Source: Promethearchaeota archaeon (GTDB lineage Archaea > Asgardarchaeota > Lokiarchaeia > Sigyniarchaeales > SOKP01). From it: a stretch of 37,253 nt of DNA. The stretch lies in the NCBI GenBank assembly GCA_016839765.1, contig JAEOTP010000085.1, positions 1 to 37,253 of the forward strand, in the 5' to 3' direction. The translations under genes and the position numbers were made by a program. Positions 2,728 through 24,094 of this stretch are shown in pieces; within the stretch, counting starts at the first letter, position 1, and every line of letters begins with the position of its first letter. The notes under the pieces are model-generated. The model was not told the origin of the DNA, searched no databases, and saw only the letters and a program-made list of their open reading frames with translations.

Positions 2728-3450
2728 ATTTCAGAAGAGAAAAATATTAAAGAACAATTTGGTCAATTAGGACTCTATTTAGTTGATAGGGCAGAAGAAA
2801 AGATAAAAGAATTTAACCAACAAATGCTTTATCAAAAAACAGAAATTAAAAAAAATTATTTAAAAAGAGTAAATGAAAATTTTATTCGAATAAAAAACCA
2901 ATTTATAGAAGCTTATAATAACTTTTTAAATGAATCATTAACTTCTAACCTTATTCAAGCTAAAGAATCTATTTTAAATCTAAAAAATAACTTTTTAGAT
3001 GATTTAAAACATGAATTAATAAACCAATTAGAAGAAATTATTGCAAGAAATTACTCCAATTATTTAAATTTTTTAATTGAGAAAATAAAAAGCTCATTAG
3101 AAATTATTGATAAACCTCCAAAAGTAATTATTCTATTAAATCAAAAAGATTTTAGTGCAATTAATAGAGATCTCTCTAAAATTGAAAATCTTTTCAAAAA
3201 TAAAATAGAAATTATTTCTTCTAAAGAAGATTTTATTGGTGGGTTTAAAGTAATCTTGGAAGATGCTAAAATAAGTTATAACTATTCTATTGATAATTTA
3301 TTATTGAAGAACGTTATTGTTATCGAAGAACACCTTTCACAAATTTTTTCTGAAACTGAAATGGAAAAATTACAAATCGATTTTGAAAGATATATTAAAA
3401 ATAAAAAACAAGAAATAAAGGAGTATTTAAAAGAGTATGATCAAATCTAA
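2728..3450 (+). CDS. atpE: A-type ATP synthase subunit E, possible ATT start
   Basis: Subunit E forms the peripheral stalk with subunit H. The N-terminal half is a long charged coiled coil and the C-terminal half is a mixed globular domain (including VIILLNQKDFSAI, GGFKVILEDAKISYNYSIDNLL), where GGf.v...d..i..d.t.d matches the E family. The first ATG is at 2824 (208 residues), but it has no ribosome site and lies inside the coiled coil. The frame is open back to a stop at 2686-2688, and the extra sequence (LVDRAEEKIKEF) looks like genuine E N-terminus. It contains no ATG, GTG or TTG. ATT at 2728 follows GGGGT at 2720-2724, with short spacing, and would give 240 residues. The exact start is uncertain; ATG 2824 is the fallback. 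The gene overlaps subunit A by 14 bases. Confidence 0.82.
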   Translation: MSEEKNIKEQFGQLGLYLVDRAEEKIKEFNQQMLYQKTEIKKNYLKRVNENFIRIKNQFIEAYNNFLNESLTSNLIQAKESILNLKNNFLDDLKHELINQLEEIIARNYSNYLNFLIEKIKSSLEIIDKPPKVIILLNQKDFSAINRDLSKIENLFKNKIEIISSKEDFIGGFKVILEDAKISYNYSIDNLLLKNVIVIEEHLSQIFSETEMEKLQIDFERYIKNKKQEIKEYLKEYDQI

Positions 3451-21424: not shown

Positions 21425-22825
21425 TTATACTATACCTAAATATTCCAAAGCCTTATTCTTGATCTTTTCCATCGTGACTGTATCTGTAGTTTCTTCTAAA
21501 TAATTGATTGTAAATGTAAGCCTTTCTGAGACAGTTACAGCAGAAATAACAAGCTCCATAAGTGGTGAGGCTGAAGTACAAAAGATAAAACGATCTAATT
21601 CCAATGGACCATATTTTGAGGGGTAATCTAATAGACCTAGATTAGTAATTGCTAAACCGGGTACTTTATCTATTTTCTTTCTTGTCATTTTATTAGCAAT
21701 ATTTTTTTTATCCATACTAAAAGAATGAATTTTTTCGTATCTACTGAAATTCGGAGGAACGAACTTACCAAGGAAACTGAATGACTGAGTTTCTGAGAGA
21801 GACTTATCAATAAGGCCCATAAGTGCAACCATTTTAAATACTTTATTAATCTTGAGCTTTTCTCTTACTTTTTCATTGAAAATCTTAGCATTCTCCCAAA
21901 AGTCTTTTTTTGGATTATAAGATAGTTCAAATTGAAATCCTGCAGCGTAGAGTCCAAAGTTTTCACCTACTGGTTTTATGTATCGTTTACGTGTGTTGAC
22001 AGGAATCAAGATATTTCGCCTTCCTCCTTTAAAATGTCCTCGAATATCGTAGCGTGCTGCAAGAAAAGCTGTGTTAAGAGCAGAATTAATAGATACTTTG
22101 TGTTGTCGACACGTTTCAAAAAGAGAAGATGTTTCTTCTTTAGTTAATTCCACTGAGATGACTTTAAAGTTGAAATTGTTCCAATATGCTCTAAAAAGAT
22201 TATCTACATCTTCGTCGTCAAAGATAACTTTGTTTTTCTGCCACATTTTGTTCATCTTATTAATTGCTGCCATTATCATTTTTCCAGGAGTGGTATCTGT
22301 AGGAAAATTTTCAGGAGTTGCTAAGGGTGGCTCAGGCATATCTTGTACCTCTCGATCGGGATCTCCAAGATATAATAATAGATCTCGTGCTAGAATTGCC
22401 AAGGATGTTCCATCACATATTATATGATGACAGGTGATGATAATTTCAGAAATTTCAGATGATTGCAATAATATAAAGCGAGCTAATGGTCCTTTTTCTA
22501 CTTTAAAACGGATTTTATACTCATCTAAGAGCTCTTGATACCAATGTTTTTCTGATTTACGTTGTACTACCTTTAATGGATTTTCAGAAACATTTTCCGA
22601 TGTAAACCAGGCATCGTAATTTTCATCAAGGTAAATCCGGACTCCTACTAAAGGGTGTTGTTGTCTTACTTTATTGAGTGCTTTTCTTAAATCCTCTTCA
22701 GCGACAAAACCTTTTAGTCTAGCAACTATAGAAATATTACTAAGAGCGACTCTAAAGAATCTCTTCTCATGAGGGACTAACTTCCTTTCAAATTTTTTAT
22801 ATTGAATTGTTTGAAGTTGTGTAAT
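21425..22825 (-). CDS. Condensation-domain (HHxxxDG) acyltransferase, ATT start
   Basis: This is a stand-alone member of the CoA-dependent acyltransferase superfamily that includes NRPS condensation domains, PapA proteins and alcohol acyltransferases. The catalytic motif is HHIICDG; from ATT 22825 (466 residues) its histidines are at 133-134 and Asp at 138, the usual distance from an N-terminus. The C-terminal half has LIPVNTRKRY, ENFGLYAAGF and ITNLGLLDY, typical of the second lobe. A TTG at 22468 is the first standard start, but it would remove the whole N-terminal lobe (RVALSNISIVARL, LRKALNKVRQQHPLVGVRIY). There is no ATG, GTG or TTG in that part. GAGGTG at 22833-22838 is seven bases ahead of the ATT. 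Substrates are unknown; acylation of a lipid, peptide or alcohol is possible. Confidence 0.85.
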   Translation of the reverse strand: MTQLQTIQYKKFERKLVPHEKRFFRVALSNISIVARLKGFVAEEDLRKALNKVRQQHPLVGVRIYLDENYDAWFTSENVSENPLKVVQRKSEKHWYQELLDEYKIRFKVEKGPLARFILLQSSEISEIIITCHHIICDGTSLAILARDLLLYLGDPDREVQDMPEPPLATPENFPTDTTPGKMIMAAINKMNKMWQKNKVIFDDEDVDNLFRAYWNNFNFKVISVELTKEETSSLFETCRQHKVSINSALNTAFLAARYDIRGHFKGGRRNILIPVNTRKRYIKPVGENFGLYAAGFQFELSYNPKKDFWENAKIFNEKVREKLKINKVFKMVALMGLIDKSLSETQSFSFLGKFVPPNFSRYEKIHSFSMDKKNIANKMTRKKIDKVPGLAITNLGLLDYPSKYGPLELDRFIFCTSASPLMELVISAVTVSERLTFTINYLEETTDTVTMEKIKNKALEYLGIV

Positions 22826-22832
22826 TTTTTGA

Positions 22833-22838
22833 CACCTC
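22833..22838 (-). promoter_or_regulatory. Strong ribosome binding site (GAGGTG) that fixes an ATT start
   Basis: On the minus strand GAGGTG is followed by seven bases and then ATT (22825-22823), which opens the frame of the condensation-domain protein. The frame is closed by a TGA about 11 codons upstream of the site. The same GGTG-plus-six-or-seven spacing occurs before the ATG of ATP synthase subunit C, so the geometry is normal for this genome. Confidence 0.65.
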
Positions 22839-22850
22839 TTAAAAAATGTT

Positions 22851-22886
22851 CTTTCATTGATCGTGAATTTTCATAATCAATGAAAG
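22851..22886. repeat. Perfect 11-base inverted repeat, probable operator
   Basis: CTTTCATTGAT (22851-22861) and ATCAATGAAAG (22876-22886) are exact inverted complements separated by 14 bases. They lie just upstream of the condensation-domain gene and in front of the divergent winged-helix regulator. The spacing suits two half-sites bound by a dimer on one DNA face (about 25 bases centre to centre). A hairpin in the leader RNA is the alternative. Related TTTCA/TGAAA pentamers continue to 22945. Confidence 0.55.
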
Positions 22887-22929
22887 TCAATAAATAATAA
22901 ATGATTTAAGTATTTAAATATTTTCACCA

Positions 22930-22969
22930 TTCATGAAATTTCACATTCTGTAAAAAGATTTTTATATTA
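22930..22969 (+). promoter_or_regulatory. Promoter with palindrome in front of the winged-helix regulator gene
   Basis: TTCATGAA (22930-22937) overlaps the perfect palindrome TGAAATTTCA (22934-22943). A purine-rich AAAAAG (22952-22957) and a TATA element TTTTTATATTA (22959-22969) follow. Initiation about 26 bases after the TATA centre would fall next to the ATG at 22994, giving a leaderless or nearly leaderless mRNA. The palindrome sits directly upstream of the BRE/TATA position, a typical place for an archaeal activator or repressor, possibly the regulator itself. Confidence 0.45.
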
Positions 22970-22993: not shown

Positions 22994-24094
22994 ATGCCTA
23001 CAAAAAAAATTAATAATCATATCTACGACAAAAAGATTAGAGAATATGAGCAGCAAATCATAAATTTCATCGTAGAATCTGGAAAAAATAAAAGAAGATT
23101 TGACATAGAATCTCATGTGCTTGCTTACTTCTTATTGCGCGAAGGACAGTGGCTTACTCAAGATAATATTAGAGAATTATCACTAACATTTTATAAAAAG
23201 GAATCTAAAAAAGGTGTTTCAAAGGGTTCAATATCTAAAATTCTGAATATGTACGAACGATATCGAGTTTTAAAAAAAAGAAAAGTTGCAAATAAAAAGA
23301 ATGCTTTTGAATATTCGATGACAGAACCATACAATCAATTAATATTTTCTACCATAGAATATGGATTAGAGGAGATAGAGAAATATATTTCATTCTTTAG
23401 GATAAAATTGATTTCTTTAGAAGATATTAAACCCAAAATTAAAGAGGAAGAATTTCTAAAAGTTATTCTAATAGAAAGAGTGCAGGAATTGATAGATTTC
23501 TTTATTTTTCATAAGAATCTTTTTGAAAATAATCTAGGGACTACAAAAGAGAAAAAAGAAACCATAGTAAAATCAGTGGAAATAAACAAGATACAAACCA
23601 AAAAGTCAGTTAGCCATATTGAAAGTGATATTATTAAGTTTATATTAGATTGTCCACTATTCGTGATTGAAGAAACGAAATATGTCCCTATAATGGCTTA
23701 TTTCTTTACAAGGAAGAGATTAACTCAAGAAAAAATAAAAAAACTTACTGGTTTCTCTGCAGGAATGGTTTCTGAAGGAACAAATTATTTAATTAAAAAA
23801 CGATACATCAAGTTAGAAAAAGTTAGGGGAGTGAGAAAACGTTTTTATGAACTATCCTCAATTGCTTATTATAATTATCTAAGGTTTTATCGTCGTTTTA
23901 AATCAATATCCAAATTATATAGGAAATTGAATGAATTAAATAATGAATTAGAAAGAAAAAAGGAAGAATTAAAGAATATATATGGTTATACAAATATAAA
24001 AGAACGAGTTAAACAATTTTTAAATACTATGCCCTTGGTGGAAAAATTAATTGTATTATTTAGGGATGCAAAGGAAAAATTTAGAGAAGAATAG
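22994..24094 (+). CDS. Tandem winged helix-turn-helix transcriptional regulator
   Basis: The 366 residues contain two MarR/GbsR-like winged-helix domains. The first (about 25-105) has LAYFLLREGQWLTQDNIREL, a recognition helix around GSISKILNMYERY, and a wing YRVLKKRKVANKKNAFEYSMT. The second (about 220-300) has IMAYFFTRKRLTQEKIKKLTG, the recognition helix AGMVSEGTNYLIKKRY, and the wing KLEKVRGVRKRFYELS. Each is followed by a helical segment that could be a dimer arm. There is no sensor motif that I recognise. The protein is basic and cytoplasmic. It is divergent from the condensation-domain gene, and the region between them is full of palindromes, so control of that gene and of itself is likely, though inferred. 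Confidence 0.82.
   Translation: MPTKKINNHIYDKKIREYEQQIINFIVESGKNKRRFDIESHVLAYFLLREGQWLTQDNIRELSLTFYKKESKKGVSKGSISKILNMYERYRVLKKRKVANKKNAFEYSMTEPYNQLIFSTIEYGLEEIEKYISFFRIKLISLEDIKPKIKEEEFLKVILIERVQELIDFFIFHKNLFENNLGTTKEKKETIVKSVEINKIQTKKSVSHIESDIIKFILDCPLFVIEETKYVPIMAYFFTRKRLTQEKIKKLTGFSAGMVSEGTNYLIKKRYIKLEKVRGVRKRFYELSSIAYYNYLRFYRRFKSISKLYRKLNELNNELERKKEELKNIYGYTNIKERVKQFLNTMPLVEKLIVLFRDAKEKFREE

Follow-up and report, generated by a model that had tools for sequence, protein, structure and literature searches.

Probable AUU initiation of an acyltransferase gene in a Lokiarchaeal genome, and the likely use of AUN start codons across its family

The window analysed here, a 37,253-nucleotide stretch of contig JAEOTP010000085.1 from a Promethearchaeota archaeon (GCA_016839765.1), carries a gene for a predicted acyltransferase on its minus strand and, diverging from it, a gene for a winged-helix protein. 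The features concerned are listed below.

21425..22825, minus strand: acyltransferase read from the ATT, 466 amino acids, condensation/CAT-superfamily (PapA-like) by Pfam, sequence and fold matches
22409..22429, minus strand: HHxxxDG catalytic motif, here HHIICDG, residues 133-139, read in the translation
22466..22468, minus strand: TTG, the first standard start in frame, rejected as the start; it lacks a Shine-Dalgarno (SD) sequence and no homologue starts there
22823..22825, minus strand: ATT, the probable start codon (AUU), placed by alignment with the ATG, ATT or ATA of orthologues and by the coding pattern directly 3' of it
22833..22838, minus strand: SD, GAGGTG, which matches the 16S rRNA 3' end; GGTG is kept in most orthologues
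22851..22886, no strand assigned: inverted repeat between the TATA-like box and the SD; arms of 17 nt, 88% complementary, fold z = -4.0
22855..22857, minus strand: out-of-frame ATG, 26 codons to TAG, rejected as the start; orthologues keep neither its frame nor its spacing
22871..22873, minus strand: in-frame TGA, the upstream boundary of the frame, read in the sequence
22911..22918, minus strand: TATA-like TTTAAATA, likely an archaeal promoter, from reading of the sequence
22994..24094, plus strand: divergent winged-helix protein, candidate regulator of the acyltransferase promoter (HTH_34, E 4.6e-5, below the Pfam cut-off)

The inverted repeat at 22851..22886 is kept in L002-L006 and L008 and is probably an operator or a 5'-UTR hairpin. 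The same can be said of the repeated TTTCAT/ATGAAA inverted repeats that lie between the winged-helix gene and the acyltransferase at 22851-22938 and are kept in relatives: they are probably operators or a 5'-UTR hairpin (fold z -4.0). In two more distant homologues, L007 and L026, the promoter region differs and has ATCGATC / GATCGAT palindromes instead, which suggests a different regulator.

The acyltransferase frame, on the minus strand, runs open between the TGA at 22873-22871 and a stop ending at 21425. A preliminary description made from the letters alone had proposed that this gene starts at an ATT with a strong SD, and its reading of the sequence proved exact. TTG 22468 lies exactly 119 codons downstream of ATT 22825, and none of the codons in between is ATG, GTG or TTG; GAGGTG (22838-22833) stands before the in-frame ATT (22825-22823) at a spacing of 7 nt (TCAAAAA); and HHIICDG falls at residues 133-139 of the 466-residue form, as described. 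The 16S rRNA of the same genome ends in GGAUCACCUCCU-3' (L242:1-338), so that GAGGUG is a perfect 6-base match to the anti-SD. A start at TTG 22468 would remove 119 residues from the protein.

These residues appear to belong to the fold. Pfam Condensation scored 67.6 bits (cut-off 30.6), beginning at residue 27 as counted from the ATT (42 in the stop-to-stop frame), and PapA_C scored 37.5 (cut-off 30). With phmmer, residues 30-337 aligned to PDB 8s6l, and Foldseek matched 8s6l over the full length with an E-value of 6e-17, although the query model was poor (mean pLDDT 50); the full-length Foldseek matches obtained with this weak model were PapA and condensation domains. Because the Pfam, phmmer and Foldseek matches all reach into the 119-residue extension, we consider the extension necessary. 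The condensation match begins before residue 119, which bears out the expectation that a standard start call would truncate the protein and lose its N-lobe. The product is predicted to be a stand-alone condensation/CAT-superfamily (PapA-like) acyltransferase. It shares HHxxxDG, probably the two-lobe CAT-superfamily fold, the stand-alone arrangement and a length of about 450 residues with the PapA-type and condensation-domain acyltransferases (8s6l, 1q9j), but identity in the fold alignments is about 14-18% and the window enzyme is archaeal.

We aligned the window gene at the DNA level with seven close homologues, drawn from six further genomes of the genus, all of them multi-contig draft assemblies. 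At the ATT column the seven homologues have ATT (4), ATG (2; L002 and L003) or ATA (1; L026), so that ATT is found in five of eight genes when the window is included. Thus the extension does align to close homologues that start with ATG, and ATT recurs in five orthologues from five separate assemblies, so that an ATG lost to sequencing error is not the explanation. None of the seven homologues starts at the position of TTG 22468. A GGTG-like SD precedes the aligned start in all homologues, one of which reads GGCG. One-base indels occur between the SD and the start, and in L004-L006 an in-frame TAA lies two codons upstream of the aligned ATT; with such indels and stops directly upstream, the leader is evidently non-coding. 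Downstream of the column the pattern is that of a gene: the second codon is ACA, ACC or ACG (synonymous), or AAC in both ATG forms, the third codon CAA is kept, and the sole early gap is 15 bases long and in frame. The in-frame gap and the synonymous second codons show that coding begins at the ATT column. Some homologues could use a standard start, since L004-L006 have an in-frame TTG six codons 3' of the ATT, and L007 and L026 have an in-frame GTG inside the SD. Two further genomes (G005 and G012; L020, L021) hold only C-terminal pieces of the acyltransferase, probably decayed copies.

We then asked how common such starts are in the source genome, a 3.3-Mb draft whose nearest named relatives are Lokiarchaeia/Lokiarchaeota MAGs. 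In the 989 kb surveyed, 855 genes were called by hexamer coding potential, and 76 of them were without a standard start at their coding 5' end (no ATG, GTG or TTG within 15 codons of the coding 5' point). Among the in-frame codons located 5-8 nt after GGTG in those 76 genes, 16 of 22 were ATH (background 15.4%; p=1.8e-9). The 22 codons comprised ATT (7), ATA (5), ATC (4), CTG (1) and five others. The remaining two frames gave ATH in 1 of 29 and 0 of 19 cases by the same test, and phage G, an SD-rich control with the same 30% GC, had zero ATH after GGTG. The signal was also detected in G008 of the same genus (5 of 8, p=0.003); G042 from the same order (1 of 3) and G056 from the same phylum (1 of 2) gave no signal at such sample sizes. 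A tally of strong SDs in the source genome (ATH 19, ATG 14) and in phage G (ATH 4, ATG 24) is supportive only, as part of the ATH is expected by chance. An SD enrichment test of all codons across the whole gene set was powerless for ATH codons, owing to the scarcity of SDs and to dilution by genes with standard starts; the signal appeared once the test was restricted to genes without a standard start. Of the unambiguous ATG starts, only about one in five has an SD, which puts part of the starts in this genome beyond the reach of such a test. According to a previous study, SDs are not prevalent in a Lokiarchaeal genome (PMC7531240). The SD-supported cases amount to at least 16 of 855 genes (2%), and the 76 of 855 (9%), miscalled starts among them, set a loose upper limit. 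Since the arrangement recurs in orthologues and in-frame ATH is enriched genome-wide, the SD and ATT at 22825 are not a chance pairing.

In six of the genes concerned (SMC, MptA, TFIIB, NifU, FlpD and MutY) the conserved domain begins 5' of the first standard start. Central genes are thus among those affected. The genes and their apparent starts are as follows.

SMC, ATC: domain from residue 10, first standard codon 78
MptA, ATC: domain from residue 6, first standard codon 60
TFIIB, ATT: zinc ribbon 22-60, first standard codon 36
NifU, ATT: domain from residue 24, first standard codon 60
FlpD, ATC: domain from residue 21, first standard codon 38
MutY, ATA: domain from residue 23, first standard codon 54
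Ras-family GTPase, ATT: domain from residue 9, first standard codon 12
HxlR, ATC
ferredoxin, ATT

Within the window, homology of A-type ATPase subunit E (2728-3450, plus strand) begins about 13 codons before the first ATG (2824); ATT 2728, behind GGGGT with a short spacer, is a possible second AUU start. Separately, a 1225-residue WD40-repeat protein (L047:5836-9510, minus strand) appears to be CTG-started behind AGGTGAT.

Alignment across species gave the same picture for three of these genes. Aligned starts were ATT (9), ATA (3), ATG (5) and GTG (2) for the GTPase in 19 species; ATT (11), ATA (2), ATC (1) and ATG (1) for MutY in 15 species; and ATT (10), ATC (4) and zero ATG for MptA in 14 species of the genus. 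In-frame stops lie one to four codons 5' of the MptA start in the genus; in L249 the ATT comes immediately after a TGA, and a standard start is reached only 21 codons later. In nine more genomes of the family, MptA has ATT (6, two of these one codon further upstream), ATA (1) or ATG (2). Outside the family ATG is usual, but in G051 (L272), from the same class, AGGTGG is followed by ATT with no standard start for about 60 codons, and AUU starts may thus reach beyond the family. When the acyltransferase, GTPase, MutY and MptA were pooled, the 65 sequences had ATT 41, ATA 7 and ATC 5 (53 ATH), ATG 10 and GTG 2. Between species, the start codons of MutY and MptA are invariant at bases 1 and 2, and 47-49% of pairs have a different base 3, as is the case at ordinary third positions; no codon periodicity is seen in the 30 bases upstream. 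The GTPase tree shows at least four exchanges between standard and ATH starts. As far as sequence can, the orthologues settle ATH starts for GTPase, MutY and MptA. Internal ATA aligns mainly with ATA, ATT or ATC in orthologues, from which we conclude that the elongation code is unchanged and AUA is isoleucine inside genes; reassignment of AUA to Met in elongation was rejected on the same grounds.

The gene for the fidelity factor aIF1, the single SUI1 gene of the source genome (L167:1453-1791, minus strand), also appears to be AUU-started, in this one genome and with a weak SD. Its 5' sequence reads TGA AAA AAG AGT ATT AAA GAC GAC GAG ATT TGT CCT. Homology to Methanocaldococcus jannaschii aIF1 (4mo0) begins four codons after the ATT, and no other near-cognate ATN codon precedes the conserved domain; the frame lacks a standard start up to codon 43, the first one being a GTG 40 codons after the ATT, inside the domain. 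Bacterial IF3 is encoded by infC, which is AUU-started, and the likeness is that a fidelity-factor gene apparently starts with AUU here too.

We estimate a probability of about 0.9 that ATT 22825 is the translation start of the full-length acyltransferase and part of a lineage-wide AUN habit. Our best reading is a third-base-relaxed, SD-supported start in one Lokiarchaeal family, the one that holds the window. It is likely that this family of Lokiarchaeia reads the start as AUN in no fewer than 2% of genes and perhaps in as many as 9%, those for TFIIB, SMC and aIF1 among them. The preliminary description was right about the AUU start; beyond what it could see, this is no single rare infC-like case, as AUN starts are found across genome and family.

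Sequence comparison shows the position of the start, its SD, the limits of the frame, their conservation and the genome-wide enrichment, and initiation might proceed on this basis as follows. Archaeal pre-initiation complexes (aIF1, aIF1A and aIF2-Met-tRNAi) are positioned by the SD before they check codon-anticodon pairing, and aIF1 disfavours non-canonical starts (PMC6237735). Here GAGGUG would pair with the 3' end of 16S rRNA and set AUU in the P site, where Met-tRNAi (CAU) would pair with A and U only, the third-base mismatch being tolerated. Such tolerance could come from relaxed initiation proofreading, the task of aIF1 and aIF1A, in this lineage; the strong SD would compensate for the loose third-base check, and the protein would then begin with Met.

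The main rival to a loose third-base check is a modified initiator anticodon, with AUN as a cognate codon rather than a tolerated mismatch, read either by a C34-modified initiator (as with f5C34) or by an initiator-like tRNA with another anticodon. The use of AUU, AUA and AUC, swapping between species, fits this explanation, as does the fact that neither an archaeal consensus pattern nor ARAGORN found a canonical initiator tRNA gene in the source genome. However, the latter is probably a failure of the search, as intron-containing tRNAs hamper detection. f5C34 occurs in mitochondrial tRNA-Met and alone is known to account for AUA but not for AUU or AUC. Overall we hold this explanation to be unlikely. 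Many tRNA genes of the genome have introns and some appear oddly placed (L229, L230, L231, L233, L235, L236, L237).

A gene-specific regulatory AUU of the infC/pcnB type, that is, a weak start giving low output or a fidelity-responsive acyltransferase, would agree with ATT being kept in five of eight orthologues and with the apparent AUU start of aIF1. The same kind of start in SMC, TFIIB, MptA, MutY, the GTPase and others, and the ATG that stands for ATT in some orthologues, make it quite improbable. We give almost no credence to a start at TTG 22468 or another downstream codon, with the upstream frame as a leader or chance opening: TTG is indeed the first standard start in frame, but the match to the condensation/PapA N-lobe, in both sequence and fold, takes in residues 30-119, no SD precedes the TTG, and the orthologue alignment, in which ATG forms start at the ATT position, refutes it. 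Equally negligible is a start at ATG 22857 followed by a ribosomal frameshift, or with a base lost in assembly; its 26-codon frame does cross runs of T and A, but the alignment contradicts it, as orthologues have in-frame stops and variable length up to an ATT or ATG that stays aligned and an ATT that recurs in separate assemblies.

The loose third-base check that we favour has partial counterparts in known systems. Bacterial infC (IF3) and pcnB have natural AUU starts behind an SD, and the acyltransferase resembles infC-type genes in having ATT where orthologues (L002, L003) have ATG, a normally spaced SD and no other standard start for 119 codons. Those are isolated bacterial genes, infC being tied to IF3 feedback, whereas here many archaeal genes are concerned, with AUU, AUA, AUC and AUG swapping between species. 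In mitochondria (NCBI tables 2 and 5), AUA, AUU, AUC and AUG likewise all serve as starts; in contrast, the present case involves a cellular genome with SD-led mRNAs in which AUA stays isoleucine inside genes. For the Asgard (Kari) tubulin AtubA, an ATT start was inferred for cloning, at a plausible distance from the ribosome-binding site and with the N-terminus missing from the deposited protein; this was one gene from another Asgard lineage, with no claim of a wider pattern (PMC13394414). In the open-access literature searched, we found no prior report of a wider ATH-start pattern.

Such proteins are truncated or missed by gene finders restricted to ATG, GTG and TTG. Standard calls would lose the N-lobe of the acyltransferase, the N-terminal ATPase region of SMC, part of the zinc ribbon of TFIIB and the aIF1 N-terminus, and wrong N-termini matter because Asgard proteomes are used to trace where eukaryotic proteins came from. 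The findings suggest that these close relatives of eukaryotes read strictly only bases 1 and 2 of the start codon. If true, initiation fidelity would have been relaxed specifically in this lineage of archaea, which is close to eukaryotes. The finding makes two questions testable: how an archaeal machinery for initiation that is homologous to that of eukaryotes tolerates a third-base mismatch, and whether aIF1 may regulate itself through AUU as bacterial IF3 does.
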